Positions 10,460-54,457 of a DNA stretch of 64,000 bases are shown here, piece by piece. Position 1 is the stretch's first letter. Each line of letters opens with the position of its first letter. The stretch is from Isoetes taiwanensis (lineage: Eukaryota; Streptophyta; Lycopodiopsida; Isoetales; Isoetaceae), in contig JAJEKV010000027.1 of NCBI GenBank assembly GCA_021234155.1, positions 6,012,623 to 6,076,622 of the forward strand, read 5' to 3'. A program made the translations under genes and the position numbers. The notes under the pieces were generated by a model that saw only the letters and a program-made list of their open reading frames with translations, did no database searches and was not told the origin of the DNA.

Positions 10460-10481
10460 GTACAACTCAGCAAAGTTTAAT

Positions 10482-12870: not shown

Positions 12871-12873
12871 AAG

Positions 12874-19406: not shown

Positions 19407-19690
19407 GTGAGGGAATGCGTCCATCTGGAACTAAACATATATACCAGCTCAAATGTATGTGTGGACCATGTAGGATGGTATTGATAGGTTGTTTCCTGTC
19501 AGTCTCAAGTTATTTACTTGCCGGATGTAGTTGATTTTGAACCATCACCTTGCCATAAAAACATTTTCAGAGCCTGATAAAGATCCCCTTATATCAGATG
19601 TATCTCAAATACATAATTATTGCCAGGTGTATGTTCAGATACATAGTGCAAGCCTGACTAAATGGAAATTTTCCATATTGACTAGTGCAA

Positions 19691-20250: not shown

Positions 20251-20255
20251 TCCTC
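20251..20255. repeat. Target-site duplication TCCTC (left)
   Basis: TCCTC directly precedes the left LTR and is repeated at 33364-33368 directly after the right LTR. A 5-bp duplication is typical for Ty3/gypsy integration. Confidence 0.95.
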
Positions 20256-21893
20256 TGTGACGCTCCCTGAACATATACGGCCCTCGGACGTATACATACG
20301 GGGACTTTCCCCTCCCATGGCGACCAACTCGCCATGAGCAGGGCCCTCCGTCTATTCCGGGCCATCTATAATATGATGCCCGAAAGAAGGACACGAAGGG
20401 GTCATTCGGCCCACGCCTTCAATGGGGCTCCTACGTCGCGGAAGCGTGAATACAAGGGTTAGCACACAGCATAAATCGCATATAAATAACCACCTCGAAG
20501 GGTGGCATATCCATCCAAATACCAACGGCAAAGAATATGCATCTAAACCTAAGAAAACACCCCAAACCCATGGTTCTACCCCTGCCTGGACTCAAAGTGA
20601 GGATCGTGACCGGCTAGGCCTCAAGAGATCGCAGCATTGAATCTTGACATGGCGCTATCGGCATAGAACATTGGCTAGGGTTGTCCACTCCATCCGCCCC
20701 TCCCCGTGCACACTTTGGATGATGGGTCAATTCACGCTATGGCGCCGCTATAGCCTTCCAGAGAGCAGTCGGCTCGAGGCATCACCTGGCTGAGCCTACC
20801 TGGGGTTCATGAAGTCCCGGTCCGATGAGGCGGTCGGGAAGCGCCCCTTCCGTAATCACGGTGGCTCCATGGGCGAAGCTAGAGAATACGTGCCGCATCA
20901 CACCCCCCGCATCCGTGCTCGACTTACTCGCCCCTAAATCTACTCAAAGTGCAAGGTGCCCCATACGGGTCACACCTTCCCACCTGTGGAGTGTCGGACC
21001 CATACCCGGCCCCTCTACGTGGGGCCATCGTCTAGCTCGCTATAGGAGTCCTGTGAGCCTTTTATGTTCGTGCAAGACCCCACCTCCACTTCACCACTTT
21101 GTGTTCCTTGTGCGGTGCTAAGCCAAGTACCATAGCATCTATGACCCGGTGGGCTCTTGTGCACATGCCGCATTTAACGGGATAATACAGGGCTCTATCT
21201 AGGAGCATACTACAATAAATAGCCTCTGAGGTCTCTACCCCCCCTTAATTCCCCATTTCCAGAGTAACACTAGGCTAACAACCACCAGTCCATCCATTAC
21301 AAGCAAAACCAGAATCGAAATATATAGAGAACCTACCTTTACAATCAAGGGTTAGTTCCCACGAGTAAACACAGAGAGAATAGACCAAAGAACCCAAGCT
21401 GTGTGCCCACTGTGGGCGCTTATCCTAGAATTCACAACTACACTAGCCACCCACCTGTTTCTGGCTCGACCCATTGTCGTTGGGGATCTCCATCTTCTTG
21501 GTCCGGGTGTTCAAATTTTGTGCAAGAAGGGTGGCGCCCAATTGCTCAAGGTGGCTTCGCCGGGTCACAAAGGTGGCGCCCACCGCCAAGGTGAGTTGTG
21601 GTCGATATGGGGGTGGCGATCCACCCTATTGACCCCAATTAGCATTATCATGCTAACCAATCGAGGGTGGCCACGTGGCGCCTTCCCAAACCATAATTAA
21701 CTTAATTATGGTTTTTTTAAATGTTAATTCCTTAGTTATAGGTTATTATTGTTAATAATTAAATTAGCATAGCTAATTTAATCCTTTTTAAGTGAACCAC
21801 CTAGGTTCCCATACCCCATGTGGCGATGTATCCCACGGTGACGATGTCAACATATTTATACTTATACCGTGTATAAATACTTGGAACGTCACA
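20256..21893 (-). mobile_element. 3' LTR of the element
   Basis: 1638 bp, bounded by TGTGACG and CGTCACA in plus-strand reading. It matches 31723-33363 over its whole length. Differences from its partner cluster at CAG and CTG sites. Confidence 0.95.
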
Positions 21894-21906
21894 TTCTCCC
21901 TCCTTA
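21894..21906 (-). promoter_or_regulatory. Polypurine tract
   Basis: On the minus strand AAGGAGGGAGAA lies directly upstream of the 3' LTR. This is the expected place and composition for the plus-strand DNA primer of an LTR retroelement. Confidence 0.85.
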
Positions 21907-22559
21907 GAAATAATCCGTCCTCAAAGATTGGGGTTAGATCTGAGATATAATAAATGACATTCTGAAGGAAGGTAATTCCTTATTTCAGAAGGTAATATAT
22001 TAAAGCTTTCAAGTTTACAACAGTTTAAGCAGCAAAAGTACAATTCACATCCTTATCATAATTAAAAAGTGCAGGGACCAAAGTCCAAGATTAACAACAA
22101 TGTAACATGTAGATAACATAAAGTTTAAGAAATCGGTCATCAAGAACCCCTAACATGGGCCAGTCACGCATCGCTCATCGGGCCCGCACATGGTAATATA
22201 TCAGTTTATATAGATAAAATAATTAGGTTGTGGTTGAAGGGTCCACCCCCTATATAAAAAAAATGAAAGAAAATTTATCTAGAAGGAACCTATCATGCCT
22301 ATGGTTCGCAGTTCATTGTGGCGTAAGGAATGGTCAGGTTCCTATTATAGCCAAGATGAATGCGGCTATGAAGTACATGCTTTACAAGCGGTCAAGGGTC
22401 ATGTCCACATTGACAAGACACCACGCCCTAAGGAACACAAAGGTGATCCCATCATCCAGAATCAGTTGTTAATTACGATGCATCTACCCCCCTCACCGAT
22501 TCTCGGCGAATCAAGTCTTCAAGCTTACCGCCGGAGCTGGGTTGATAGCATCGTTGATG
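21907..22559 (-). other. Region between pol and the polypurine tract
   Basis: About 650 bp of element sequence with no recognised domain. An env-like ORF is not visible. Confidence 0.6.
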
Positions 22560-22720
22560 GTGCGGCCTTGAGATTCGCCAAGATGAAATCCGGGTAGTGC
22601 TTCTCAAGATCCGTTTGCATCACCCGTAGCATCCTCCACCGGCAAGTGTTTCCACTTGACCAAGTATTGTAGCATTTGAGTCCTCCCGTCTCGTTTTATA
22701 AGCTCGATCAAGAAGAGCTT
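22560..22720 (-). pseudogene. Chromodomain-like C-terminus of integrase
   Basis: The minus strand reads LVKWKHLPVEDAT, a good match to the chromodomain core (YLVKWKGLP--EATWE in chromoviruses). Chromodomains guide integration by binding histone H3 tails, usually H3K9-methylated. This one lies downstream of the integrase core, as in chromoviruses. Confidence 0.65.
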
Positions 22721-22919
22721 GTGTACTATCTCTAGCTGCTCCTCTGTCATTTCCGGGAGGGTTGGGGTTTCAAAACCTCCTCGGATCAGGGGTGTCTTTG
22801 CTTTAGAAGACTCACATGAAAACCTTGTGGATCTTTAAGCGGGGTGGCAAGTCCAGGCGATATGCTTGCTCCCCAATACGTTCAGTGATTTTGAACGGTC
22901 CAGCCCATCTGGGTGCCAA

Positions 22920-23900
22920 CTTCTTTGCAGTTACCAATCTTAAGCTTGGCTTGTTTTACCTTAATCTTAAGCCAAACCGATTCACCCACCGGAAGACTCG
23001 GGGGGGTCCTGGCTTATCTGCTACACTCTTTTGACGATTGCGTCGCCTAGCAAGTAACCACGCACTTCCTCGACCAAAGCTTGCATCTCCAGGAGGAGTT
23101 GTTGAGAAACCTGCACTTTCGACACGGGGTTGTGCCATGTGTCAGGAGTAAGGCATTGATAACCATAATTTATCATGAAAGGAGACATTCTGGAAGACTC
23201 CTGTTTCATACTGTTATAGGCAAACTCTACTAGATAAATATAGTCAGCCCATTGGGATTGCTTACTCCACACATAACTTCTGTAGCATATCCTCTATGAT
23301 ACGGTTGGTACGCCTCCGCTTGACCATCCGTCCGAGGATGATAAGTTTGTACTCATAGCAAGCTTGGTTTGTATGGTGGTGAAGAAATCTTTCCAAAATG
23401 CACTTACAAATTTGGGATCTCTGTCCGGATACAATGACCCGTGGCATTCCGCGGCAACCCAAGATCTCTTTTGCAAAAAGCAGAGCAATATCAAAGGCGG
23501 TGTCCGTGGTACGACATGGCAAGAAATGAGCCATTTTTTGACAATTTGTCGACCACGACCATTAACGCATCATATCCACGGAGAGTACGTGGAAGGCCCA
23601 CTATAAAATCCATGGTTATCACTTCCCCTTAGCGTTGGGCACATCCAAAGGTTGCAATTCTCCCCGAGTCCTTAATTGTTCTCGCTTTGGTCTGCCGGAC
23701 ATACCGACATTAATCGCTTATGTATTCGCAATGTCCTTCTTCATCGAAGGCCAAAATAACCGAGCGGATTTTAAAGTAGGTCTTCATAAATCCCGCATGT
23801 CCAGCTATAGGGTGTTATGTGTGTCATGGAGGATTAACTTACGCGACTCCGGAAGTCCGAGGTACACACAACTTATCCTTGTGATATAACAGATTGCCCT
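22920..23900 (-). pseudogene. Integrase region of pol
   Basis: Segments typical of Ty3/gypsy integrase are readable: a target-strand block around GMPRVIVS, the sequence ADYIYLVEFAYNSMKQESS (the W-x-x-x-LVEFAYN signature of chromoviral integrases), and a GPFKI-type GPY/F module further on. The region is not one open frame, so it is annotated as a broken part of the element. Confidence 0.8.
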
Positions 23901-24012
23901 CTTTCTTATATGAACGGAAAGCTTCGCGTTTCTTTATCCTGTCGCGTGCCTCCTTACTCAAACTAGCCCATATTTCACGTAATCCCTGATCCGTGATCCG
24001 TAGCCAAAGGTC

Positions 24013-25194
24013 CTATTCTATCTGTTTCCCAAACTCACTTGTGAGTGTAGAAATTGCATTACAATGGGTTCGGGTTACCGAGGGGTGGCGTGACAATGCA
24101 TCCGCAACCACATTGTGCTTTTCAGGCTTATACATGATCTCAAAATCATATTCTTCAAGACATTCCATCCATCTCCTCTGACGGAGGTTGAGGTTCGGTT
24201 GGGTGGATAAATAACGGAGACTTTGGTGATCCGTGTCCAACTGGAATCTTCTACCAAGGAGGTAGTGTCTCCATATTCGCAATGCGCGAACAACAGCTAA
24301 CAACTCCTGATCATGGGTAGGATATCGCTGTTCTGTCTCGTTCATCTTCTTTGAATCATAGGCAATAACCCTCCCTTCCTGCATTAGAACCCCACCAGTG
24401 GCGATTTTACTGGCATCTGTGGCCACTAGTTTATGCTTATCAGGATCGGGCAACGTGAGAACGGGTGCTGAGGTTAAGGCATCTTTAAGCTGCTGGAAAC
24501 TTCCCTGAACCTTAGTCTTCCAGTGCTCCATCCAATCCTTCACCTTCTCATGCTTCGTAAGGTTTGTAAGAGGTGCTGCAATCCTTGCAAAATCCTTGAC
24601 AAACTTTCGATAGTATCCTGCTAATCCCAAGAAACTTCGGACCTCGGAGACAATTTCTGGAATAGGCCATTCCCTTACGGCCTCTATTTTTGCTGGATCT
24701 GTAGCAATTCCCTCTGCAGAAATGATATGGCCCAAATAGTCAACCTTTGGAGTGGCAAACTTGCACTTAGAGAACTTGGCAAAAAGCTGATGACGTCTTA
24801 ACTTTTGTTCTTCTAGAGTCTTACTGTAGATGAGAATGTCGTCAAAGAAAATGACAACAAAATCATCCAAGTATTGTCGGAAAACATCGTTCATTAATCG
24901 CATAAACGTTGCGGGGGCATTAGTTAATCCGAAAGGCGTAACGGTAAACTCATAATGCCCATATCTAGTGCGAAAAGCAGATTTATGGATGTCCTCCTCT
25001 TTAATCCTTATCTGATGATATCCCGAGCGAAGGTCAATCTTTGAAAAATATTTGGCCCCTTGCAACTGATCCATTAGATCATCTGCTCTCGGCAAAGCAT
25101 AGCGATTTTTGATGGTATGCTTGTTGAGTTGCCGATAATCAATACACATTCTCAAGGAGCCGTCCTTTTTCTTTACAAAAGAATAGGGCGCCAA
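24013..25194 (-). CDS. Reverse transcriptase and RNase H part of pol
   Basis: A 393-codon open stretch. Residues 1-130 hold the reverse transcriptase signature blocks: [18 protein letters not shown] (8-24), [13 protein letters not shown] (50-62), [12 protein letters not shown] (86-97) and the catalytic FDDI motif (117-120, equivalent to YxDD). VDYLGHIIS (151-159) and [14 protein letters not shown] (186-199) form the connection. RNase H follows at about 257-369 with its acidic residues in VATDAS (D260), DQELLA (E297), LDTDHQS (D322) and ADALSR (D365). Function: copying the element RNA into DNA in virus-like particles. It is part of a longer polyprotein whose protease lies upstream and integrase downstream. 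The family is chromovirus-type Ty3/gypsy by the RT sequence. Confidence 0.95.
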
Positions 25195-25539
25195 AGGGCT
25201 AAACGCTTAGGTCTAATAAAACCTAGGTTTAGTAGCTCTTGAAGTTGCTTCTTAAGCTCGCCAACTCGGGGACTCATACGGTCAAGAGGGGCTTGCTGGT
25301 AGGTTTAGTACCGGCTCTAAAGCTATCTCACATTCTACCCTCTAAAAGGAGGAAGCGGATCTCGCCCGGGAAAAGATCGCTAAATTCATGGAGAATACCG
25401 GGCAATCCCCGTGGCAAGGTGTTGATTACTTGGTTTTGCTTAGCATCGACTCAATGGAAGCAAGTCTAATAACGCTAGAGGAGCTTTTGCTTGCGTGATA
25501 GCTTTATCTAACCCGTCGAATGGACATAGACCTGCATGA

Positions 25540-25900
25540 TAGGGTTGAATGGTTCACCTTTTATAGTTACGCGGGCTCCATTAGCGCGTTGAAGGTAACT
25601 TCTCTCTTCTCGCAGCCTATGTTGGCTTTTGCAGATGCCAAGAATTCCATTCCGGACAATGAGGTCGATATTTGCCAATATCCATTAACTCGGCACCCAT
25701 AGCAACCGGTGCGCCCGGCAACCATGATCTTAAGGTTGATGCGACGACCATGAGTATGTCTAACCTTACCATCGGCTAAAGTGACAGGCCCCGCCGCGGA
25801 CCTTAGGGTTTCCAGTTGTAGGACCCGGGCCATTCTAGGAGAAGCAAAATTATGTGTCCCCCCGTATCCATAAGAATTACAAAAGGCTTACCGCCTACTT
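25540..25900 (-). pseudogene. Protease part of pol
   Basis: The minus strand reads FVILMDTGG near 25860-25890, with the DTG/DSG catalytic triad of retropepsins (family norm: VLIDSGATHNFI). It lies between gag and reverse transcriptase, as expected. The surrounding frame is interrupted. Confidence 0.7.
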
Positions 25901-26039
25901 GGCCTATGGTGGAAATGACAAAGAAAGTGACTTTTCAAGATTGCCGTTTTATACCGCAAGGATATGAGACGACCGTGAATGTACTCGGAGCCGCCCCCGT
26001 CGGCCGGTAATGTTGACTCAATATCGCCCCATCCAAGGT

Positions 26040-26130
26040 CGGGCCATGGCCACCAGGCCCCTGGGTAACATATGGGCAATTGCATGAAGTGTCCGTGCCT
26101 CATACACTGTAACATGCCTTATCCCTACAA
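26040..26130 (-). other. Zinc-knuckle-like end of gag
   Basis: The minus strand shows MRHGHFMQLPI preceded by cysteine codons, resembling the GHF/GHxxxxC part of a CCHC nucleocapsid knuckle. It lies between the gag core and protease. The match is partial. Confidence 0.45.
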
Positions 26131-26363
26131 GTACTTGTTCCTCGCCTCTTTAGGAATGGATCAGAAGAGGTTCGCGAACTTCCTTACCAAGCATTGTTTA
26201 CGCTTATCCGGCGTGCTAAAAGCGACTTTCTTCTCCGGCGGACCGTGAAGAGTTCTCACGAGGGCCCCGGACTTGGAGAGCGGGTTTATAAGGTGTGGAT
26301 GGCCGTGTCTGCGAGTAAGGAGCAGACGCGGATATCGATTCCTTTGTATGTCCTCCTCGAGGC

Positions 26364-27244
26364 TCAATGCTTTAGCCTCGCCAGAATCGATTTCGGGTCG
26401 ATGGCCTTAACCATACGTTTGATCGATGGTGCCAAACCCTCAATATAGCCCTCCACTGCCCTTTTCTCATTCATACCAGGTACATACAGTCTCAGGCGCA
26501 TAAACTCATCCGTGTAAGCCTGCAGGACATACTTTTCTACCGCTCCAACCTGTAGAAAAAGTCGGATCTGTTGGCATTTATGTGCACGGGGCACATAATG
26601 CGATTTGAAGGCCTTGGCAAACTTTCTGAAGTTGCATCTACTCCTGTCCAGATGTTTGGCTCTGGCATAGCCCTTCCACCAAATACGGGCAGCTCCGGTA
26701 AGGTTTGTGGTGGCAACCTTTCCTGTATCCTTCTCTGTCATGCCATAGGACCTGCCGAACTCCTTCATTTCGTCCAGCCAGGATTCGGCATTCAAGCCGC
26801 CTCTAGATTTCCCATCAAACTGGGCCAATTTCCTATTCTTCCATATACTAGTTATGGCTGTATCAACTGTCTTGCGGTACTCCTTATCTCGGCGCTTTGC
26901 ATGGCCACCAGATGATGCGGATGATTCAGATGACACTGAAGTGGCAGACTTTGAGGAGGTGGCACTATCTCTAGAGGAGCTCCGTCGGCGTTTAGAGTGG
27001 GACCTCTTTCGCACGGGTACAGGACTGGTTCGTGGTGGGGACGGCTGCTGTGCAGGTGGACTAGGCGGCAACGGAGGTAACTCCGGTGCATCCTGTTGTA
27101 CATGCTGTGGTGGGTTAGCATGCAAGGCGAGGGGCGTAATTCGCCTAACTGTCTTTTCATCAGCATCAATTCTTGTTCGGGTGTTAATCGACTTGCATTT
27201 GAGGGTGTCTGCCAGGCGGCATTGCGTGCACCGTCTATATTAAA
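26364..27244 (-). CDS. Gag (capsid) part of the element
   Basis: Open from the ATG at 27125 (253 codons); a second start further upstream at 27244 (MFNIDGARNA) may be the original one in another frame. The N-terminal ~90 residues are proline- then serine/arginine-rich and look disordered. The retrotransposon gag core follows: FDGKSRGGLNAESWLDEM, TNLTGAARIWWKGY, FRKFAKAFKSHYVP and YTDEFMRLRLYVPGMNEK, matching the conserved W-L and aromatic pattern of Retrotrans_gag. It would form the virus-like particle. The C-terminus runs toward a zinc-knuckle-like stretch. Confidence 0.88.
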
Positions 27245-27471
27245 CATAGTAAGTGTTATAACAAAGTCATTTTGGGTAGTATCGAGAAACACAAAGTGAA
27301 CACGGAAAAGGACGGAAGATTCAAATTACAAGCGAACTAACGGTTACATTAAAGAAGTTCATACGGAACACAGTTATAAACTTATAGTTATATAATACAT
27401 AAAGGGGCCTGATACAGGCCATTTCCTAGTCATAGTGAAGCATAGGAACACACAAAACTGGAAAATGCGGC

Positions 27472-28008
27472 TTAAGGGTTTGCGTAGGGATACATGACGG
27501 CATAGCGCACACTCTCACGCACAGCTCTGACGAGCTTGTAACGTGCCCAAGCCTGGATAATAACGGGTTGATAATCCCAAGTGGGGCTAATAATCAGAAG
27601 GTTGAAGAGCCTTCGCAGTGCGTAGAAGATTTGCCAGAGATGATCATTAGCATCCTCAAAAGCTTGATGTGGGGTCATATTCCAATAATCCCAAGTGCGG
27701 GAAAGGGTCCATTTCAAATCATCGTAAGCACGTTCTCGAAGAAGAGTAACTATTTCCATCCCCTTGTCAGGATCATAAGGTTGTTCCGGCACCCTAAGCT
27801 CCGCTATCTCATCGTCAACTTCCCGTTCAGGATACTCGTTGTATCGTTCCCCATAGTCCTGTTCAGGAGGTCCCTGTTCATCTCTCGTTATCTGGAATGT
27901 TATCCTATCTTCGTACTCCGCCAGTGTTTCTTCTGCAAGACGACAGGAGTAATTATATATAGATTGAACAATTTTGCTATACCCTAGATTCCAGTAGTAA
28001 GACATCAT
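27472..28008 (-). CDS. Unrecognised ORF of the 5' module, next to gag
   Basis: A clean 178-codon ORF, co-oriented with gag-pol, starting MMSYYWNLGYSK. It has an acidic middle (YNEYPEREVDDEIAELRVPE) and a helix-rich, tryptophan-containing second half (LKWTLSRTWDYWNMT, LLIISPTWDYQPVI, YKLVRAVRESVRY). No signal peptide, clear membrane segment or known motif is seen. It sits in the extra sequence between primer-binding site and gag, where most Ty3/gypsy elements have no gene. It is probably an additional element protein; function unknown. Confidence 0.65.
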   Translation of the reverse strand: MMSYYWNLGYSKIVQSIYNYSCRLAEETLAEYEDRITFQITRDEQGPPEQDYGERYNEYPEREVDDEIAELRVPEQPYDPDKGMEIVTLLRERAYDDLKWTLSRTWDYWNMTPHQAFEDANDHLWQIFYALRRLFNLLIISPTWDYQPVIIQAWARYKLVRAVRESVRYAVMYPYANP

Positions 28009-28299
28009 GGAAGAGAACGATTTGAATTGTATTCATTAATACAATAGACACAAATCATAAGAGAATAGCGTATATATTGTATAATGGCTCAAAACAAAAA
28101 TATACTAATTCCAAGAAAATACATATGGTGGAGTTGCCCAAAGGCTATACTCATTTAATGGATCTTAGGAAAGGACTAAGAGCTAGGCCCCGCGTCTTGA
28201 TCCATTTTCGTAGGGGACGGTGGCTCCGGGCGGTAAAAGCGCAACAGGGGGCTAATGGTGAGGCGGCACCAAGCAATCAAGCGGGAGGAAAAGCGATAG

Positions 28300-29626
28300 C
28301 TAATGGTGTGCTGCACGAGCATTTTCATGCTCATCCAAGCCGCAATGTCTTGGCTTAACGCAAACAAGTGCCAAGTCGCGACTCACAAGTCTGGCGTAAT
28401 GGAGATTTGTAGGAGCTTGGCGGTGTCCGGCCAGAATCGACAAAGCCGGTGCCCAAAAAGATGCCTCAGCCTTAGGAGCGAGAGCTCGAACAAAGAATAA
28501 CACCTGGCCTTGACGAAAAGCTGAGAGGAAGAACCGCGTAAGATGGTTCTTAAAAGCTACTACGTCAGGATCTCTGCTAGTCGCTATCTCCCTTTCAAGA
28601 TTGAGATGTACCTGCTCCGCATAGGCCTCTTCCTTATCTTCTTTCAGATGGTCTTGATTATCGCACAACTCTTCTCCCTGTTCATCCTCCTCCATTGGTA
28701 TGGCCACCTCGTTAATATTAGGGACATGAGGTCCCATAGCAAAGAAAAAGCATCCTCAGGTGGCGGAGAAGGGGGATCTTGGAGCATCAATTGCCTTAGC
28801 TGTAACAAGGTCTCAACAGGTGCAAGGTCTTCTGGGTGAAACCTAAGTAGCCGTTGGACTTCCGCAGGATAATCAGGAAGGGAGAAGTCAAGGAAGTCAT
28901 CCTGACAATACCGGGCCGAGCTTCGCATGTGACGCAGGTCCTTGGTCATGTGTGGAAGGTTAGCGATGACGGATATGCCCACATGATATCATCGAGGAGG
29001 AGATACTCGACCATTGTGCATGATTGGGGAAGGGCATCCAACCCCGCAAGCTTGCGGCATCGTGGCCTCATGACAACGGGCGGTTCGATGGCGAGCCGCT
29101 TCCATCGAACAAAATCAGATGGCTGATGCGCCATCCTCCTCCGGATCATCAGCAATAGGTAACTTCCCTTTTTCCAATGGAGTGTAATCAACTCCACATA
29201 TTGGTCCATAAGAATGGCTAATGCAAAGCGGACCTCAAAATAGGTCTGGCATCATTCAAAACGGAGGATAGGAGCATGACAGCACGGCGCTGAATACCCC
29301 TAAGTGTATCCTCAAAGATGTTTGTCATCCCCAAGCATCTGCATAAGTACGGATCTGTGGAGGTAAAGCTGAGGAGGATCGCCATACGGAGTGCACTGGG
29401 GCACCCTCTCTTGAATGTAAAACTGCAAGAAATCGGCATAGTCGGGATGGGTCTCCATATTGGCGATAAGATCCACCTCTTGTAACAAATAAGGATGGAG
29501 CTGCTCAAAGGGGACATCAGGATCCCATCGCTCTCCATCGTGGTACCACCATTGCCGACACGGGTATGGTCCATAGCGAGCACTAGGGGAGGAGGAGGAA
29601 GATAGGAAAAGGGAAGAGCTTATCAC
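28300..29626 (-). pseudogene. Unrecognised coding-like region of the 5' module
   Basis: Five overlapping minus-strand open stretches cover this interval. Their peptides have protein-like composition, for example WYHDGERWDPDVPFEQLHPY, PDYADFLQFYIQERVP, PAEVQRLLRFHPEDLAPVE and PMEEDEQGEELCDNQDHLKE (acidic, perhaps coiled). I recognise no domain. It is probably one decayed gene of the element, broken a few times. It precedes the ORF at 27472-28008 in transcript order. Confidence 0.5.
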
Positions 29627-29765
29627 AAGATTGGAAACCCTAAAAGGAAAGGGGTACGTTTAAAGAAAAAGTGTTCCCTTTTTTTTTTTTTTTAAAAAGA
29701 ATATTCCCTGAAGTGAAATAATTTATTATTATTTCGGTTATTGGAAAAAAAATGGTGTTTTGTTG

Positions 29766-29791
29766 TTTTTTTTTTTTTTTTTTTTTTTTTT
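29766..29791 (-). other. A26 tract on the sense strand behind the H3-like ORF
   Basis: Twenty-six consecutive T on the plus strand, meaning A26 in the sense of the H3 ORF, starting about 132 nt after its stop. Plant core histone mRNAs are polyadenylated, so this is what a captured processed H3 mRNA would look like. A second A15 tract follows at 29679-29693. Confidence 0.8.
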
Positions 29792-29923
29792 CGATTTGAA
29801 AGTTTGCATGTATAGACAGCATGCAAATGCAGTAATAGAATATGATGTTAATATAACACTTTATATTAATATCAAAACAGGATGTACAAAAAGATACAAC
29901 ACATATTACAAAATTGAGGACAA

Positions 29924-30334
29924 TTAAGGCCTCTCCCCACGAATCCTACGCGCCAAGGCCAAATCCTTGGGCATGATGGTCACACGCTTAGCATGTATAG
30001 CACAGAGGTTCGCGTCGCCAAGAAGCGCAACCAGATAATCCTCAGCCGCCTCTGTAGGGCCAAGATGGCATGCGCAGGGCGGGAGGTCAGTCTTAAACTC
30101 CTGCGCGATTTCCCGAACAAGACGCTGGAACGGCAACTTCCTAATGAGAAGCTCAAGAGACCCGATACTTGCGGATTTCCAAGAGGCCACCGCCCCGTGT
30201 CTAAACCGGTGGGGCTTCCTCGACGAGGAGGGGGGAACAAGAGGAAGTCTCTTCCCTCCCGTGGCTGGATGTCGGGCTCGCTCAACTAAGGTGTCCCTTC
30301 TCGGTATCCCTCTCTTCTTTGCAACCCCACCCAT
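29924..30334 (-). CDS. Histone H3-like protein inside the retrotransposon
   Basis: 136 codons, the same length as histone H3 with its initiator Met. The histone-fold core is unmistakable: RKPHRFR (39-45), [17 protein letters not shown] (62-78), FKTDL (80-84), [11 protein letters not shown] (95-105), [16 protein letters not shown] (109-124) and LARRIRGER (127-135). The last two segments are almost identical to canonical H3 (helix 2 end, loop 2, helix 3). The N-tail is strongly diverged: ATGG is kept, but the ARTKQTARKS start and its modifiable lysines are not at the ORF start. The helix-N and loop-1 areas match poorly, so the copy may be somewhat decayed or affected by sequence error. Loop 1 is not extended as in CENH3. 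The ORF is co-oriented with gag-pol, lies between primer-binding site and gag, and is followed by a 3' UTR-like stretch and an A26 tract. Confidence 0.93.
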
Positions 30335-31099
30335 CGCCTCGAGCCGGGTCTTGTATTGTGACCCCAGCGAAGTTGGGCTGGTGGTCTTTCTCTTCCGCCG
30401 GTAAAACGGTTGGGGGGCTCCTAACCCAGTATCCGATCTCGGCTACTAGTATCCGAACGCTTGGCGCTCAGCGTCTTTGCTCCTTAACAAGCGTCTGGCC
30501 GTCCGCCGCCGGATCTCTCGCAAGATATCGGTCCGGTCGGGCCGCCATGTCAAGTTCCACATCCATCGGTTCTTCCTCGAGAAACGAGGGTTAACATCTT
30601 CCCGGATAAAGAACTGGGCATCCTCATCGTAGTAGTATGGGGGTATTACAAAGCTGTGGCCCTCGCTATGGCTCTACCGTCCCAAATATCGATACTCATG
30701 ACCCCTTGTAGCCGGGGTCCGCACGAAGCTGCCTCCCCTAAGATCTTTCCTCGTGGGCCATGGCCATTGTGTGCCGATTGGCTACTCGAGCCTCGGCTCC
30801 AAGAAAGATCTGGGGCCATATCCGCAGGGGTAGTATTTAACTAAGGTTAGGGGTTTGGTCCTCCTGCTCCACCAAGGTATAAGTCATCCCTTCAGCGTTG
30901 AGCTTTAGCAAGAACCGATTCACAAATGGAAAACCGGTATGGTATCCGGATCCCCTCCATGAATCGTGAACACTAGTTGATCTAGGAGGAGTTCAGCCTC
31001 TTCTCGCCCCTTCAGTATCTCGATGTAGTCCCCAAGCAAACGTAAGAGCTGGACAACATCGTAGCTTGAGAAGCTCTTAGTGCCCTTGGTTCTCGCCAT
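30335..31099 (-). pseudogene. Coding-like stretch upstream of the H3-like ORF
   Basis: An ATG at 31099 opens a reading that starts MARTKGTKS and continues FSSYDVVQLLRLLGDYIEIL before a helical, acidic segment. The first five residues equal the N-terminus of canonical histone H3 (MARTKQTARKS), which may be chance. Further along, basic coding-like peptides occur (for example REDVNPRFSRKNRWMWN). It is not open throughout. Whether this was the N-terminal part of the H3-like protein or a separate gene cannot be decided here. Confidence 0.45.
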
Positions 31100-31708
31100 C
31101 TCTTTTCAATGTAGCGGGCAGGCCGCGGAGGTGGAAGTCGCAGCTAGGGCGCTCCAAAAAGGGTTGGTCAAACTGGTACGGACAAATACGGCGGCTATGG
31201 CGCTTGGCGGTCGGGTGAGGAGGCGGAACCCTAAAAGGAGTAGGTGAGCCAAAACCCTAAAAACGTCCGTGGTTAAATTTCGCCTCAGTAATTAAAATTT
31301 TTTTTTTTAAATGGTCAACGCCTGGTCAAACCGGCGGACTTGGGTATTTTGGCCCTTAAAATCGCAAAATAAACCCTTATTTACCCAAGTGCGCCTATTT
31401 TAAATTTCGGCCCCTCTGATCACCACTTCTCGCTCACCTGGCAGTGTCCTAGACTAATTCAAGGGTCCCCGACGCAATGAAACAAAACTTTTCCGATTCC
31501 GAGCTGCCTGAGGAAAGTTATGGCACTTTCCAACTTGAGTCATCCAGTCGCCCTAAACTTCCTAAAGACTTACAATTTACTATATCAACCTAGCACAAAA
31601 CCAAACATCAAAGAGCTAAACAATCACACTCGCTTTAACTCCCTCCTAACTACCGAACTAACGAGTTAGGGCTTGGTCAGTGCTATGATTCCGAGTAACC
31701 GAAATCAC
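31100..31708 (-). other. 5' leader of the element
   Basis: About 600 bp between the primer-binding site and the first ATG of the 5' module, with no recognised coding sequence. A packaging signal would be expected in this area but cannot be recognised by eye. Confidence 0.5.
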
Positions 31709-31721
31709 GGCTCTGATACCA
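31709..31721 (-). promoter_or_regulatory. Primer-binding site for initiator tRNA-Met
   Basis: On the minus strand TGGTATCAGAGCC lies one base from the 5' LTR end. It is complementary to the 3' end of plant initiator tRNA-Met, the commonest primer of plant LTR retrotransposons. This fixes the right-hand LTR as 5'. Confidence 0.95.
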
Positions 31722-31722
31722 C

Positions 31723-33363
31723 TGTGACGCTCCCTGAACATATACGACCCTCGGACGTATACATACGGGGACTTTCCCCTCCCATGGCGACCAACTCGCC
31801 ATGAGCAGGGCCCTCCGTCTATTCCGGGCCATCTATAATATGATGCCCGAAAGAAGGACACGAAGGGGTCATTCGGCCCACGCCTTCAATGGGGCTCCTA
31901 CGTCGCGGAAGCGTGAATACAAGGGTTAGCACACAAAGATAAATCGTGATATAAATAACCACCTCGAAGGGTGGCATATCCATCCAAATACCAACGGCAA
32001 AGAATATGCATCTAAACCTAAGAAAACACCCCAAACCCATGGTTCTACCCCGGTTCAGACTCCAGTGAGGATCGACTGACGGCTAGGCCTCAAGAGATCA
32101 GCGCACGTAATCTTGACATGGCGCTATCGGCATAGAACATTGGCTAGGGTTGTCCACTCCATCCGCCCCTCCCGTGCACACACTTTGCAGATGGGTCAAT
32201 TCACGCTATGGCGTCGCTATAGCCTTCCGGAGACGCAGGCTCGAGGCATCACCCTGCTGAGCCTACTCCGGGGTTCATGAAGTCCCGGTCCGATGAGGCA
32301 GGTCAGGGAAGCGTCCCCTTCCAGAATCACAGTGGCTCCATGGGCGAGCTAGAGAATACGTGCCGCATCAGCGACCCCCGCATCCGTACCCGACTTACTC
32401 GCCCTAAATCTACTCAAAGTGCAAGGTGCCCCATACGGGTCACACCTTCCCACCCAGGGAGTGTCAGACCCATACCCGGCCCTCTACGTGACCGGCTATC
32501 AGGTCTAGCTCGCTATAGGAGTCCCAGGAGCCTTTTATGTTCGTGCAAGACCCCACCTCCACTTCACCACTGTGTTCCTTGTCTGGTGCTAAGCCAGTAC
32601 CATAGCATCTATGACCCGGTGGGCTCTTGTGCACAGGCCGCATTTAACGGGATAATACAGGGCTCTATCTAGGAGCATACTACAATAAATAGCCTCTGAG
32701 GTCTCTACCCCCCCTTAATTCCCCATTTCCAGAGTAACACTAGGCTAACAACCACCAGTCCATCCATTACAAGCAAAACCAGAATCGAAATATATAGAGA
32801 ACCTACCTTTACAATCAAGGGTTAGTTCCTACGAGTAAACACAGAGAGAATAGACCAGCAACCCAAGCAGGTGCCCCACAGGGCGCTTTTATCCTAGAAT
32901 TCACAACTACACTAGCCACCCACCTGTGTTTCGGCTCGACCCATTGTCGTTGGGGATCTCCATCTTCTTGGTCTGGGTGTTCAGCTTGTGCAAGAAGGGT
33001 GGCGTCCAATTGCTCAAGGTGGCGCTCAGCTCTGGTCACAAAGGTGGCGCTCCACTGCTCAAGGTGAGTTGTGGCTGATATGGGGGTGGCGATCCACCCT
33101 ATTGACCCCAATTAGCATTATCATGCTAACCAATCGAGGGTGGCCACGTGGCGCCTTCCCAAACCATAATTAACTTAATTATGGTTTTTTTAAATGTTAA
33201 TTCCTTAGTTATAGGTTATTATTGTTAATAATTAAATTAGCATAGCTAATTTAATCCTTTTTAAGTGAACCACCTAGGTTCCCATACCCCATGTGGCGTA
33301 TGTATCCCTGGTGACGTGTCAACATATTTATACTTATACCGTATAAATACTTGGAACATCACA
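31723..33363 (-). mobile_element. 5' LTR of the element
   Basis: 1641 bp, partner of 20256-21893. Followed directly by the TSD copy TCCTC at 33364-33368. Promoter and polyadenylation signals should lie here, but I could not place them with confidence. Confidence 0.95.
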
Positions 33364-33635
33364 TCCTCCGGCAGTACGTTAGTCTTCAGCACATGGGAGC
33401 AATTCCCTCAAAGACGTTACCGCCGGTTGCTATTGCATCACTGCATCATTGGACAAATAAAGTAGCTTTCATAGATCAGTATACTAGGGATGTTTTTAGC
33501 CACCTTTGAACACAGACGCCATACCTCCACTATTTTTAAGTGCATCCCCGGAACTTTCTTGTTGATATATTTGTTTTCTCCTATCTTTTTTGAGAGTCGA
33601 CCTAAAATAAATTTGATAGACCATCCAGTTTTATG
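33364..33635. other. Flank between retrotransposon and block B
   Basis: Begins with the TSD copy TCCTC. The remaining ~270 bp are unique and hold no recognised gene. Confidence 0.6.
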
Positions 33636-36600
33636 CAATGCAGTGCCCAAACCCACTACGATAACAACATGCATTCCTATGATAGCGTGTTCAGGGACAC
33701 ATAAGAGAGAGCATGTGAGCACCTTAAACAAGAATATTCATGTGTCTCGGCTATGCCTTTCTGAAGAAAATCGATGTATCAACCAATTGCAAATGTTCAA
33801 CACCGACTCATAAAGATGTGACTAATGACCAATTATCCCCTTTAGCCACAAATGAGTAACGGGGAGTTCACATCCATCCTCCTCTTCTCGATGGCCATAT
33901 GATTCTCTGAACATTTAGTAGTTGTTGCCAGGCCATTCCCATTTTGTATCAGAGAATGCCCCCACAAGCAAAAAACTAAGAAGAGCCAACCCTTCTAATT
34001 TTAGGTAAAAACTCCTACAGTAATGGAAATTGGGGGATCGGATAAATGTTCGGATGAAGGGAAATGACTTGCTATGTATGTTGTTATTGTAATAACCACA
34101 TGAATCAGTAACAGACATAAAGAACCTAAGCGCGTGCTTCCATCATCATCTTCTCGGAGCGTCTGCTGCACTACTCAAAGAGTATATATGGTGGAGATGA
34201 TTGGCTTGGCTTGCATTCATGGATGAACCCATTTAATGGTCCTTCAAGAGGACAAGCTAGCTATTAAATGAGCTTTTGAGGAGTGACAAGGACTACGAGT
34301 CCCGCTAGTCTCATACCATTGTAGGAGATATTACAGTAACTTAGACTCGGGGTGGCTTCTCTGTAGACAATGCCACCTCAAATATTTTTTCCCGCATTTG
34401 ACTACTTGGCTTAACTTCAACAGTACCAATAGCCAAGTTTATCTTCTCCCATTCATGCACATGATTTTGACAAGGATGCTATTGATTCTGAATATTGGAC
34501 ATGGAGTTGTCTTTGCAAGCGTTGATTTGGACATGTATTTCAATTTATGTTGAATATTAAAAACAAACCATTGCCTAAAAATGGTTAGAAAGGAAAAAAA
34601 CCATTGTCAAGACAACATATAAGGCAAAACAAATTTTGCTCAAACATAAACCTAACCTCCCTCTACACTCTACTACCATAGTAGCTCAAATAATGATAAC
34701 ACATAGGGCATGATGGCCTTAACAAAGCCTCAATATGGCTTCCCAGTTCAATCCTCCCCTTTCCTCAATATGGCTTCCCGGACAAGCGTTTTCAATCCTC
34801 CCCTTTCCTTAGGGCGTAGTTCCCTTGGGCAGATGACACCTTGCTTTAAGTCGTGACAAACGTTTTTTAGCACCATTCCCTACTTTTGCTTCGGCTTATT
34901 TCTGGCAATCTAAAAATATCAGAAGTGCAGGAGGACTTCCTTAATTCCCCAAACTAGAATTGGGTTTGCTTCTTGTTGGCCTTTGTTTATTTCTTCCTCT
35001 GAATTTTCTTTCTAATTTGTCTTCGTACGCTTCTTTCAGTTTAGGAGTTGAAGGGCGAAGTGGCCCTTACTTGCACCTTCACAAGCTAATTGAATTACAG
35101 AGTCCTCACGCATAATAGATGTGTAAAGATAATTGTAGGGATTTTAATAGCCGATTGATGTTACAACCGCCATCTTTGAGCCGATGCCACTTTCATAGTA
35201 GGGCAAAGCTTGATTTGGGGGTGGGTTTGGTTGGGGGTGCCTTGTAGAGATGATTCAAGACCAGTAGAATACTAGTGTTTCTAGATAAACACCCGAGCCA
35301 TTGCCAAATTTTTTTTGGGGCCATAAGCCCGAGGATGAGGGCGTTATCCCCCTCAACGCCCCGGTCCAAGGGTAAACCTATCTTCAGCCGTTGGCGCCCA
35401 TGAACCTAGCCTTGGTTTCCGTGATCATAATGCCCTAGGGAATCCCGTTAATTGCTCGTAACCTGCTAATAAGAGTTTGCACCATAGTTTGATCCTAGAA
35501 GGTTGTGCATTATGCATATCCCCAAATACTTAAAACCCATGCTTGAAGCATCTATGCTAAATCTTTCTTGTATTTTGCACAAGTGTGTGCATGACTATCA
35601 GTATAAAATGATTGATATTGGATATTTAGTTATACCATTCTAGTCAAAGTTTTTATTTGGGGCCTTTCTTTGGGCCTTAATTTATGATAGTTGATAGCAT
35701 AAATGGTTTGAAGATCGGTTTGAAGATCCGAATTTACTAGGCAACAGAATTAGGGGGTTATTCAATCCATGGTTCAAAAACGGATTTTGATTGATGTATA
35801 TCATCATTTGATTAATGCGAGTTTTGCTGAGTCTTATTGTGGCAATTCAGCTGGTTGAGCACGAGCTTGTGTGCACATGAGATTTTGCTTGCGATAAAAG
35901 AAGGTAGGTATCATTGCTCCTTCTCTCTTCCGCATCGAATTTATTACATAAGATACTCATCATCAGATCAATAACAGTCTTGGCATGTTTAAAAATCTTA
36001 GGGCCGAAACACAATAGATCAAAACCTTTCTCAAATGCTGAGAATGATACATTTAAAGGGGTTTTGAGAAAACTTTCAAACTCGAAGCAAAAACGTTTTC
36101 CGTGCAATATTCTAAGGCGAAAACAAGGTGTGGCATTTCTGGAATAAGTGTGCCAAGCATAACTGTTCTGTTAACAAGGACATTTTACAACACAATATAT
36201 TGTGTGGGATGCGTATTTCCATTTGCTCCAACCAATAAAACAGATTACTTGCATTTGTTCCTTCATTGCTTGCTTTTAACTTTGGCATCTGGTGCAAAGT
36301 GTCTGAAGTATCTTGTAACCATATAAGCTGCCATGACCTGTACCCCAAGAATTTACTACGCTTGTGGTATCACTTGCCTGCTCAGCTCTACTTCAGTCCT
36401 TTTGCAAGCATATCGTTCTGCTCAAAAGAATCATCTAGGTGTCACCTTTGGAATGCATGCCCTTTAACACTGCACGAAAAAGAAAGCAGGACCATAGCTA
36501 AAGAAATCATTCCAGCTTCAGCATGAGAGCATCTGCAGTACCGCACGAAAAAGTAAGCAGGACCATTATGCTAAAGAAATCATTCCATCTTCAGTGTGAG

Positions 36601-38015
36601 AGCATCTGCAGTGCCACACTCCAATTGCATTCGCTCAGAAGGGATGGAAGCTTTACTGCCAGTGGAAGTGTCAATATATCCTGCAACTAAGGAAGCCTCT
36701 CAAAAACTTCACGAGCTTCTGAAAGCAAGTTCTCCATTTCTAAGTGAAACATACATTGATCTGGGCAGCCTGCAATACCTTGAAACAAATTAAAAGCCTC
36801 GAGCATCAGAATGTGTATATGCCTCCCCATACAGAAAGGCCATTTAAGAATACTAGCTGGTTTTTAAAAGAAAGCACAAATATCCTCTGGCCATGGAGAC
36901 CATACCACAACATCAAAGGCAGGGCATACTATTGCTTTATGACATATAAAGAATGTGATCAACGCAGCAGCAGCCAAACCTTGTCCAACCTGAATTACTA
37001 CCTATTCCAAATGCGTATCCTTGTTTTCTTTACCAAAATGCAATACAAGAGCACTGACCAGATGAAGCACAGACAGCATTTTGCCTAACGTACCCTGTCA
37101 AATATAACGTTTAAGCATCTGATTGTAAATTACATAACCTCATATATCCCTTAGTGATGCGCAGAGAAGCAAAGACGGCATGGCTTCCTTCCTCACGCTG
37201 AGACCTTTAACAAAGAAACCATTTTATGTGGAGATAACACGAATGGTGCTTTCTATAGACATTAATCTGAGGAACCATAAAACTTTCTCCAATAAATCTT
37301 GCCCTTGGTAAACTTGCTGACGAAAGCAGCAGAGGTTGATTTGATAATACGGTAAGTTCCACGAAAGCATTCTAATAAGAAATTATTACATATAAGATAA
37401 TGCGTTTAGCTAAGGTACTGAAAGCTGGAAGAACTATCAAATTACATTATGATGACAGCACATCCTTGTTTAAACCAGAAAGCTGACCTGATAGACAGCA
37501 GCTGTTCCTGCTGCACTCAAGGTTCCGCTAGCCAAAAATCCGAACCGAGAAGAATTACATTACAAGCGCATCTCATAATACCCCATTCATTCAACACAGT
37601 TGGTTTTGATTGCTAGCAGAAATGGAAGACAACACTAGCAGAATGGCCTGATATTAGCCGTTCAGTCCTCACGTCTGTCTAAGAGGCAAACAGTGCATCG
37701 AAAGGCTGCTATTAGCCTGCCGCAATGGGGTGATGTTTCAGAGAAGCTTAAGAAAAGAGACAAGCTCTTTACAACACTTTGCATGAGCAACGGAGTGGAA
37801 GGATCCGAAAAATTTCTAGAGCTGTAGTCAGCTGTTGGGTAAAAGCTTTGTACAATATAGCAAGGGTTTCACTTTAAAGCGTCGGTCCAAGAACAAGCAT
37901 CCCCAGACGCGTCGGCACAAGAACGAAGAAAAAGACTGATCCATCGCACCGTAAATGGAAAACTAAAAAAGAGAGAGAGAGCAGTAGGGCTGGCTACTTG
38001 TCAAACAAACACTAT

Positions 38016-38057
38016 ATCCCACTGGAACACATTGCAACAACAGATAGCATATAAAAG
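38016..38057 (+). promoter_or_regulatory. USE and TATA of U6 copy 2
   Basis: ATCCCACTGGA at 38016-38026 and TATAAAAG at 38050-38057, 23 bases apart, TATA starting 30 bases upstream of the snRNA. Confidence 0.85.
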
Positions 38058-38079
38058 GTACAACTCAGCAAAGTTTAAT

Positions 38080-38097
38080 GTCCTTCGGGACATCCGA

Positions 38098-38129
<32 letters not shown>

Positions 38130-38180
38130 GGCCCCTGCGCAAGGATGACACGCATAAATCGAGAAATGGTCCAAATTTTT
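38080..38180 (+). ncRNA. U6: U6 spliceosomal snRNA, copy 2
   Basis: Identical in its core motifs to copy 1 (ACAGAGA box, AGC triad, GATGACACGCA, T8 terminator). It has the GATAAAATTGGAAC form expected for plant U6. The 5' stem-loop is again GTCCTTCGGGAC. Promoter is intact. With copies 3 and 4 it shows no internal damage, so it is a candidate for a working gene. Confidence 0.96.
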
Positions 38181-38522
38181 TTTCCAATGTTCCGCTTGTA
38201 TTCTTGCTCGAAATATGATTCCGATTTCTTAAAATTTTAGAATATTCCCACCATTTTACCAGTGATTGTTGTTTGGAATTGCCATGGTCAACCCTTGAAG
38301 AACACTGCCAAACGTTAAGTATTTTTGGCAAAGATATTCATGGTCTTGTTCATATTAACATTTTGCCAAAAAAATGCCACGACAAACCCTATGGTCTCGA
38401 TTGGACATATGGTCCTCGACCCTCCTGTGCAAGAGAAGCCACAATCACAAACAAGCTCGACACCAAGCACTGCGGCCTGCCAGCTAGTGCTCCACATGAA
38501 GTCGGGGCGCATAATAGCCCGG

Positions 38523-38915
38523 GGAAAGGAATGCATTGGAGGCGTGGAATGCATTATTCACCTTTTTTCCTTAATGTGGATAAGTGGTTTTGGCCCGGGA
38601 GCAGTCCAAAAAATCGGAGGAACTTGTATAACAAAGGTCTATTCTTCCAATTCAGCTCTCATAAACTTGCAATATTTTTGTTTCCTCAACTCTCAAAACC
38701 AAAGACTAAACCACGTATCGCATACACGAGAAGCAATAAGAAATTACATCACAAACGGTGCGGGCGCACCATCCTTCCAGCGCCATAAACTTTCAAGGCT
38801 TCCACACCGACGGGACCCGGCATGTTAGGCGACATGTCCACTCAACAGATCTCGCCATAATGCGCATCCAATCTTTTTTTCGTTTCCATACCATGCGGAT
38901 ATCGACCACAAAACC
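38523..38915 (+). repeat. Repeat R, copy B1 (truncated)
   Basis: Copy of repeat R behind U6 copy 2. It stops at ATCGACCACAAAACC, where block B jumps to sequence matching 11591. Confidence 0.75.
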
Positions 38916-39406
38916 TTGATGCTTGCAAAATATGATGCATGCCTTGATCGTAAACTAAAACCAAATATACCTCACTTAGAGTTGTATTCTTTGAATCATG
39001 ATGATGCTTTCTAGAAGGTGCATGAGAAAATGCCATTTTGAGTTTTTTTATGCTTCTCGATGATATATTTCAATAAAAAATATGGAACTTTTCGTTGTTT
39101 ACGCTAAATTTTGTCCTAATTTGTGTGCTCTTAGTTAAGATAAAGCAGAATGAAATGGGTCCAAATGCACCTTCCCCTACTTTATTTTCGAGATGAAACT
39201 TGCTTATAGTCAGCTTTGCAGTAGCATAAAAGAAAAAGATTAGCTGCAGACTAGACTGCTTGTCAAACTCTGCCAGGTGAAATCAAAGCATTTGCATGTT
39301 TTCACAAATTAAGAGAAACAAATAAAGTATAGAAGTGGACAGATAGCATGAGATAAGAATGTTACTTGAGGACAACATGGGATGCATGTCAAGAAGGTGA
39401 ATAGTT

Positions 39407-39932
39407 CTACTTCGTTCATCAATTATTAAGGCCCCAAAGGGGCCAAAAATTTTTTGGGTTAACACACAAACCATTACATCCAGCACTCTAATATTAAATC
39501 CCCCTTGAAACCCCCTTTGGTTTGGGTGCATATTCAAACGGGGGGTGACTCCGGGCATCGAGAGCTGTTGGATAGGCATATTCACCTTTTATTCCTTAAT
39601 CTACACCATGCATAAAGTTCCTCGTTTGTGGGGTATGCATGTACAAAAATTGCTATACTGTATAACAAAATTGCAAAATACTATAAGGTTTGAGGTAATA
39701 TACTACATGGTGTTGATTTATACATGCGAAACATAATTTTATGAGCTCGAAAAAGCTGCGGCCTATACCATTGTAGAAAAGATGAATGAAACGCCACCCC
39801 TATCGGTGAATATGCACCCAAACCAAAGGGGGTTTCAAGGGGATTTAATATTAGAGTTTGGATGTAATGGTTTGTGTGTTAACCCAAAATTTTTGGCCCC
39901 TTTGGGGCCTTAATAATTGATGAACTAAGTAG
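39407..39932. mobile_element. Non-autonomous TIR element (MITE-like)
   Basis: Inverted repeats of about 145 bp bound this 526-bp element. The left end reads CTACTTCGTTCATCAATTAT, the right end is its complement (ATAATTGATGAACTAAGTAG). Both arms contain the internal palindrome GGCCCCAAAGGGGCC and the block AACACACAAACCATTACATC. The ~230-bp centre has no ORF of note. No convincing target-site duplication is visible, so the superfamily is not assigned. It lies at the exact point where block B departs from block A. Confidence 0.85.
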
Positions 39933-39992
39933 AAAAATATTTGTAATGATATTATAGACACAATTAGAAACATTTTATTGATATCTATCTAT

Positions 39993-40500
39993 TTAGGAAT
40001 TTAAAATAGCAAAAAGAAATAAAAACCATGATATAAAGTTTAAAGGCTTCAATATTGTAGCGATGTAAGATGTGATAATGTTCACTGATGCAATAGTTTG
40101 AACGCTAATAAGCATGATGTTGATAACAATGGCAGTGCCATATTCATCGAACATGGATCCAACAAAGGCGGGTAGAGCAAGACAGAGATCATTGCTTGTC
40201 ATTGGAGCTGTGGGAATGTTAAAATCTCTTGATAGATGTATTTGAAGATCCATCTCGCAAAAAGCCATAATAGTTTATGTTCCAACTGTAACCAAGTCTG
40301 CAGAAAAGAGGCATCATCCCATGCTTACTCCCAAGTCTGTGTTTCCAATATCATTTGACAAACTGGAAGGAGTACAATCATACAAGATGAAAGGGGATGT
40401 TCCAAATAATGGACCAAATGCTCCAAGCCATGCAGCAGCACTAATATAAATTCCATATGGGCCATAAATAGTTGGGTATATTGATTTCCCCTAGAACTTC
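39993..40500 (-). pseudogene. Membrane-protein-like fragment, unrecognised
   Basis: Two minus-strand open stretches in succession. The first (from about 40485 to 40310) includes YPTIYGPYGIYISAAAWLGA, then FGPLFGTSPFILYDC. The second (91 codons, 39993-40268) includes LALPAFVGSMFDEYGTA, then IVINIMLISVQTIASVNIIT and a hydrophobic end FISWFLFLFAIL. Glycine/aromatic-rich hydrophobic segments suggest a polytopic transporter. A stop and a frame change separate them; no family recognised. Confidence 0.4.
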
Positions 40501-40995
40501 AAATTCTCCTGCATAGTATCCAATGGGATGTTTTAATATCAAGTATGATGCAACAAGCTTGGCTTCATCTTTCACACTTTATTCGTTTATGAAATACACT
40601 TAGATACATCTCAAAAAATTTTAAAACGCACTGTTTAATTTGTCTAAAAAAATTTAATTAATACATACCACCTTCGATGACCGGTGAGAATCGGGTAATG
40701 ATGAAAATTAGCGGTAATGATGAAAATTAGCGGATCGGGTGAGACCGCACCTGATTTACAAACATGATTTACAAACAAAAAACTAAACCTTAAACCCCAC
40801 CTCTTCTTACTTGCACTTTTATAGGTGACAAAGCCAATCCCTCAATGGGCTCTCAACAAAAACCTCAACATTTGGACCCAGTTTGCCAATTCGTGTCTGT
40901 TTTCAGAAGGGTCAGAATTTGTGCTCAGATTTGTGCTTGAAGGATATTTTATCGATCCTCTGACATACTGGAAACAACAATGAACTGCACAAAAT

Positions 40996-41236: not shown

Positions 41237-41335
41237 CTCAGTTCGAAGCCCCATCATGAGGCTGGAAAGTGCCATAAGGCCTCCTGGAGCAGGGCCTGTA
41301 GGGTTTAGGAAGCAATAGAAATTAATTACCAGTAA

Positions 41336-45329: not shown

Positions 45330-45332
45330 TTA

Positions 45333-54425: not shown

Positions 54426-54457
<32 letters not shown>

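Follow-up and report, generated by a model that had tools for sequence, protein, structure and literature searches.

A histone H3-like domain in the first open reading frame of a Ty3/gypsy retrotransposon family of Isoetes taiwanensis

Does an open reading frame (ORF) resembling histone H3, embedded in a long terminal repeat (LTR) retrotransposon of Isoetes taiwanensis, belong to the element that carries it, and what might it do there? The frame lies in a 64,000-nt stretch of the genome, here called the window, where a retrotransposon on the minus strand (20256-33363) encloses it (Table 1). Residues 24-135 of the ORF align to H3 in the PDB with 120.8 bits (phmmer), and 57 of the 66 residues in its two unbroken core stretches are those of plant H3. 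The original prediction placed this ORF between the primer-binding site (PBS) and gag, co-oriented with gag-pol, and the LTRs, the target-site duplication (TSD) TCCTC, the PBS and the Pfam matches bear it out; gag, reverse transcriptase (RT) and RNase H, as matched by Pfam, all run in the same sense as the H3-like ORF. Two LTRs with a short TSD and Ty3-type gag and RT-RNase H are all present, placing the element in Ty3/gypsy. We take the PBS to be of the initiator-Met type. The best database matches to the RT are 50-64% identical and are all other pol proteins, the named ones mostly from plants. No integrase domain was recognised by Pfam in the broken pieces of the window element that were scanned. 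ORF2 has no match in the PDB (profile search) or in Pfam (two proteins searched), and ORF3 matches nothing in Pfam or the protein database; in the family both are conserved proteins without a known domain. Elsewhere in the window, positions 206-1820 hold a solo LTR that belongs to this family, matches the window LTRs at 78-82% identity and has CCAGC on either side, and large direct and inverted duplications (6084-19684, 33634-49285, and 52196-62385), with pieces 86-98% alike, flank the element.

Table 1 Features of the H3-bearing retrotransposon, in window coordinates
Feature	Coordinates	Strand	Description
5' LTR	31723-33363	minus	1641 bp; direct repeat of 20256-21893; TG...CA ends; TSD TCCTC at 33364-33368
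Primer-binding site TGGTATCAGAGCC	31709-31721	minus	plant-type; adjoins the 5' LTR
ORF1 region, frame broken in the window copy	29924-31099	minus	open in seven relatives of the same subfamily, 394-416 aa
H3-like ORF, C-terminal domain of ORF1	29924-30334	minus	136 codons; Pfam Histone E=1.3e-24
A-tract	29766-29791	minus	run of 26 A (coding strand), separated from ORF1 by an untranslated stretch
ORF2 region, broken in the window	28176-29575	minus	frames of relatives about 460-510 aa
ORF3	27472-28008	minus	178 aa, open; relatives 59-93% identical
gag	26367-27239	minus	Pfam Retrotrans_gag 2.1e-11, Ty3_capsid 9.3e-10
Reverse transcriptase and RNase H	24016-25206	minus	Pfam RVT_1 2.5e-31; RT_RNaseH 1.2e-32 (24016-25194)
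Chromodomain-like segment	22607-22834	minus	close to the 3' end of pol; weak Pfam Chromo match of 21.4 bits against a cut-off of 25.1 (E=2.4e-4)
3' LTR	20256-21893	minus	1638 bp; direct repeat, TG...CA ends; TSD TCCTC at 20251-20255

The reading frames of the window copy are unreliable. In two patches its H3 stretch is out of frame relative to H3, and the two LTRs differ in 145 of 1661 columns that are grouped in only 42 clusters, a clustering reached in none of 1000 random placements; 9 substitutions (0.6%) lie outside multi-base clusters. These clusters touch CAG/CTG in 28 of 42 cases (random mean 9.3, maximum 14 in 100 draws), and CG is enriched as well (32 of 42, random mean 17.4). The same motif recurs among the differences private to the window when it is compared with four relatives (L002, L003, L005, and L016), 21 of 39 lying at CAG/CTG (random mean 9.2, maximum 17 in 200 draws), and is absent as a bias from the private differences of L016 itself (6 of 39, mean 5.4). 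Four further duplicate pairs in the window gave mixed results: one strong (67/99 clusters, mean 20.5), one weak (28/85, mean 17.3), and two without bias (16/60, mean 13.4, and 3/11, mean 1.5). The strongest bias belongs to the duplicates at 15752-19684 and 45328-49285. The pattern resembles that of base-calling error or of mutation at methylated CHG sites. Within the damaged ORF, identity to H3 is 13/31 in the tail and 56/65 in the core (p=1.7e-5); the kind of amino-acid changes in the core is no better than random (2359/5000), and a codon-usage frame scan of the window gives a weak signal. Stop codons upstream of the H3 ATG are no fewer than expected by chance in the window (988/2000 nulls; 47/2000 when H3 is included), so that a long ORF1 is evident only from the relatives.

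The H3 ORF was searched for in the assembly of 1,658,258,908 bases (1110 contigs). Among 7589 first-look candidates 150 were scored, and all 150, the window itself among them, reached E<1e-38; 119 of these scored places have no internal stop. A search with canonical H3, whose scored list overlaps the first in part, gave 150 scored places out of 9022 candidates, with 15 at 96-98% identity, then a gap, and then 135 at 71-86%. The 15 are taken for host genes. Many of the at least 135 more distant places sit in open frames of 300-567 aa; a few of them may be host sequence, because intron-bearing H3.3 genes match only exon by exon. Besides the window, 49 places in this one genome were read, comprising the 29 top matches over 3.4 kb each (L002-L030) and 20 places picked for long open frames over 10 kb each (L031-L050), the latter being the set covered by LTR checks. 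An ORF1 open for at least 330 aa is present in 7 of the 29 and in 19 of the 20; in the twentieth (L049) the motif filter missed a frame of 369 aa.

The element family brings its own H3, as had been predicted: other copies carry the ORF in the same slot. LTR similarity to the family occurs in 19 of the 20 loci read over 10 kb (in L043 at some distance from ORF1), and the primer-binding motif TGGTATCAGAGC, with at most one mismatch, lies 495-746 nt upstream of ORF1 in 15 of them. Across the same 20 loci, ORF2 matches in 19, ORF3 in 15, and gag in 15, and the common order across copies is LTR, PBS, ORF1, ORF2, ORF3, gag. Locus L048, oriented 2289-9802, has two LTRs around ORF1 and ORF2, the second followed by another PBS-like stretch, and no significant ORF3, gag or RT match between the LTRs; it is either an internally deleted copy or a tandem.

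Comparison with these relatives changes the picture of the gene. Where the original prediction described a 136-codon H3 gene, the H3 fold in relatives is the C-terminal domain of a longer ORF1 protein (394-455 residues, typically about 415) that consists of an uncharacterised N-terminal domain, a basic linker resembling a nuclear localization signal (NLS), and, at its end, the full H3 histone fold. The natural start is not the ATG at 30334, since seven relatives with open frames begin with MARTKG at the equivalent of 31099 in the window, where MARTKGTKS can still be read; the window copy belongs to their subfamily. Four subfamilies are distinguished by their starts: A with MARTKG (7 copies), B mostly with M..K.VY (14, among them L032 and L038, for which no start was found, and L041 with KGVQ), C with MPRFKL (4), and D with MAITKR (1). 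In all of them a basic linker of about 60 residues and the longer N-terminal domain stand in place of the canonical H3 tail, and an RRKRK-like basic cluster precedes the fold in 22 of 26 copies. The canonical tail with its K4, K9, and K27 contexts is absent; an ARTK start occurs in 7 of 26 copies, all of subfamily A, and TARKS, as found around H3K9, in 5 of 26, in the linker of the subfamily-B copies L031, L032, L035, L037, and L050. The earlier view of a diverged tail lacking the usual modifiable start is not supported by this comparison, as the window subfamily starts with MARTK like H3 and five B copies carry TARKS.

The H3 core is under strong purifying selection. Median dN/dS (Nei-Gojobori, about 100 codons) is 0.046 in subfamily A (21 pairs, range 0-0.2), 0.026 in B (55 pairs, 0.01-0.11), and 0.035 in C (6 pairs, 0.02-0.07), and for the remainder of ORF1 it is 0.175, 0.14, and 0.119, respectively. 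This comparison of synonymous and non-synonymous change among copies, proposed with the original prediction, used 23 of the 26 copies (L038, L041, and L042 were left out, and subfamily D is a single row); for most pairs that span two subfamilies dS has reached saturation. In codon models that set omega to 1 and kappa to 2, the H3 core loses 93.1 log units in A (7 sequences), 183.3 in B (10), and 492.5 over 19 sequences of all types. The corresponding losses for the rest of ORF1, which is three times longer, are 162.1, 318.0, and 617.5 log units, showing that this part is constrained too. The copies compared are those with open frames, which biases the values towards working copies; the contrast between the H3 core and the rest of ORF1 is independent of that choice.

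These results bear on two explanations in which the H3 sequence would be of no use to the element. The first, that a processed H3 pseudogene landed in the window copy as a one-off passenger and is decaying there, would account for the broken frames and for the A-tract that follows a 3'-UTR-like stretch in the window. It is very improbable, as other copies carry a longer ORF in the same slot, the median dN/dS in the core is 0.03-0.05, and the H3 segment is not surrounded by a TSD of at least 8 nt. The original prediction had itself allowed for a passenger, which slot and constraint in the other copies refute, and for a separate later insertion with its own TSD; around the H3 segment there are just two 7-nt matches. 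A LINE-type secondary insertion was likewise rejected: comparison of the stretch behind the A-tract with 30335-31715 yielded no exact direct repeat of at least 8 nt and two of 7 nt. The second explanation holds that ORF1 is constrained merely as a leader or for the translation of gag-pol, with the H3 sequence irrelevant. The position of ORF1 soon after the PBS would suit such a role, which is nonetheless hardly credible given that constraint acts at the amino-acid level and is strongest in the H3 fold, with median dN/dS of 0.03-0.05 there and 0.12-0.18 elsewhere in ORF1.

What selection has kept can be read from the residues. Among the 88 core positions (47-134), 46 are canonical and invariant across the 26 copies, and the core as a whole is 80-88% identical to canonical plant H3. 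All 26 copies retain C110, H113, R116, D123, L126, and I130, which we take to be H3-H3' and H4-pairing positions, and R63, R69, R83, F84, Q85, and T118, presumably DNA-contact positions. K56, K79, and K122 are likewise present in 26 of 26, R49, R72, and K115 in 25, and K64 in 22. Four changes from canonical H3 (V89I, A90L, T107A, and I124L) occur in every copy, and H3.3-type residues are found at position 90 (L90, 26/26) and position 87 (H87, 21/26). The Pfam Histone model matches 23 of 23 rows of the ORF1 alignment, one row being canonical H3, and a profile of ORF1 that included this canonical row matches H3 in the PDB at 9.3e-78. AlphaFold without an alignment gave two poor models, neither with a significant PDB match; the one built from the damaged window ORF had a mean pLDDT of 53.8. 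Centromeric H3 (CENH3) typically has a strongly diverged core, and the 80-88% identity to canonical H3 would speak against a protein of that type. The 12-20% of the core that differs may point to a fold re-purposed away from nucleosomes.

A rival reading places the H3 fold inside the particle, where ORF1 might bind or compact the RNA or cDNA of the element. Virus-encoded histones condense nucleic acid in virions, and the retained DNA-contact positions, the basic linker and the location of ORF1 in the gag-pol half of the same element are all compatible with a role of this kind. We regard it as unlikely, since conservation is as strict at the H3-H3' and H4-pairing positions as at the DNA contacts and Pfam scans of ORF2, ORF3, and gag revealed no other histone domain, so that a nucleosome-like particle would need H4 from the host. 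A similarly doubtful possibility is that ORF1 serves as a decoy, titrating H3 chaperones or H4, or offering an H3-like tip to readers and writers and thereby weakening silencing. The MARTK start of all seven subfamily-A ORFs and the TARKS motif in 5 of 26 ORFs would fit this; however, these tips are not common to all subfamilies, and the most constrained part is the fold and not the tip.

The family appears to descend from a single event. In a tree that took in canonical H3 cores, without CENH3 or other variants and with a rough bootstrap, the 26 copies split off as one clade from 11 canonical H3 cores (100/98), and the nearest core to that clade is the H3.3-type core of P0231, at weak support (83/91). 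The shared residue changes and the shared N-terminal part suggest one old capture of H3 by the element lineage. Plant H3.3 genes contain introns, and the intronless H3 of ORF1 would agree with capture from an H3.3 mRNA; places in the host genome that resemble H3.1 are single-exon too, as is the H3 of ORF1. The A-tract behind ORF1 is compatible with capture of an mRNA and is no proof of it. A run of at least 12 A lies 131-137 nt past the ORF1 stop in all seven subfamily-A copies examined, and a run of at least 10 A lies within 330 nt of the stop in 7 of 19 other copies and is missing from 12. A fresh poly(A) tail was ruled out as the source of this tract, whose recurrence at the same distance in 7/7 copies of subfamily A marks it as old or functional and not as a sign of recent capture.

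ORF1 and ORF2 may also have moved between backbones. In two loci, L036 and L042, DNA comparison with the window gives shared fractions of 92% for the LTR, 93-94% for ORF3, and 85-89% for gag, but ORF1 aligns over only 17-25% of its length, at 70-73% identity; in L036 the jump in similarity falls inside ORF3. These two loci carry deeply different ORF1-ORF2 cassettes, from another subfamily than that of the window, on near-identical backbones, a mosaicism most simply explained by template switching.

For a family in which other copies bear ORF1 in the same slot, with many open frames, strong constraint on the fold and a single clade of H3 cores, we propose that a Ty3/gypsy lineage captured H3 and kept it as a domain of ORF1, and that ORF1 pairs with H4 and acts on chromatin; we give this reading a probability of roughly 0.55. 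A chromovirus-like lineage of I. taiwanensis would long ago have captured an H3 transcript, most probably of H3.3, joined it to the first ORF of the element, and retained ORF1 under selection while splitting into at least four subfamilies. The protein would enter the nucleus, pair through the preserved interface of its H3 fold with host H4, and dock on or enter nucleosomes, and its N-terminal domain would serve the element, most likely by tethering the element complex to chromatin or by altering the state of the chromatin on its copies. We infer a nuclear role with host H4 because the conserved surface is the one by which H3 pairs with H4 and touches DNA. A further-reaching version, which we put forward tentatively and consider less probable than not, is that ORF1 is a replacement H3 built into nucleosomes with host H4 as a self-made mark, that its extension of about 300 residues recruits machinery for integration or against silencing, and that the ORF1-ORF2 cassettes behave as if they were exchangeable specificity modules.

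A retrotransposon family that carries a selected H3-like gene in many copies is a parasite that appears to make one of the proteins with which its host packages DNA. Chromoviruses are known for reading histones, and a lineage that produced a histone of its own would mark a new stage in the contest between transposons and chromatin silencing in plants; if ORF1 is a replacement H3, the parasite would write its own nucleosome rather than merely read that of the host. The family also offers a tool open to direct test, a naturally selected H3 with a replaced tail, in many copies, beside normal H3 in the same genome. If ORF1 enters nucleosomes, maps of silencing and heterochromatin in I. taiwanensis would have to take it into account; otherwise it would reveal which features of the H3 fold are retained by selection for a different task.

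Conserved extra ORFs in plant LTR retrotransposons are established, in sense or antisense and upstream or downstream of gag-pol, and transduced host genes are usually co-oriented with gag-pol, according to one study, from which the word histone is absent (PMC7264820). The commonest additional ORFs described there lie between pol and the 3' LTR (PMC7264820), unlike ORF1 of Isoetes, which lies 5' of gag. Most additional ORFs are without known domains, and the section on a survey of 121 angiosperm genomes mentions no histone among the additional domains discussed there, a chart in the supplement excepted (PMC9289625). The same source describes orchid Ty3/gypsy elements with an added AlkB (2-ODD) ORF, kept through several rounds of replication (PMC9289625); these resemble the Isoetes family as plant Ty3/gypsy elements with an extra ORF encoding a host-type domain, and differ in that they encode an RNA demethylase in 25-kb elements, whereas the Isoetes family encodes a core histone 5' of gag. 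Among the matches listed from the open-access literature, as distinct from subscription journals and supplements, none was a retrotransposon-encoded histone. IMG/VR scans with the H3 ORF, ORF3, RT, and the ORF1 alignment returned no relatives, and a protein-database search with the 172-aa H3 stretch found H3 proteins, of which the 120 listed all measure 219-301 aa, a length window outside which proteins of ORF1 length fall.

The element shares gag, RT-RNase H, LTRs, and a 5-bp TSD with chromoviruses, has a chromodomain-like segment whose match stays below the cut-off, and departs from chromoviruses in having three extra ORFs between PBS and gag, the first of which holds H3. Its core resembles plant H3.3 in its 80-88% identity to the canonical protein and in L90 and H87, and is unlike H3.3 in its replaced tail and in V89I, T107A, and I124L, found in all 26 copies. 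Histones encoded by parasites have precedents among viruses, since Marseilleviridae encode histone doublets and a bracovirus encodes an H4 with an extended tail. As in these viruses, a parasite here encodes a core histone, and the bracovirus H4 is likewise extended at its N-terminus; the viral histones belong to DNA viruses, whereas in Isoetes the carrier is an LTR retrotransposon and H3 is fused behind roughly 300 additional residues.
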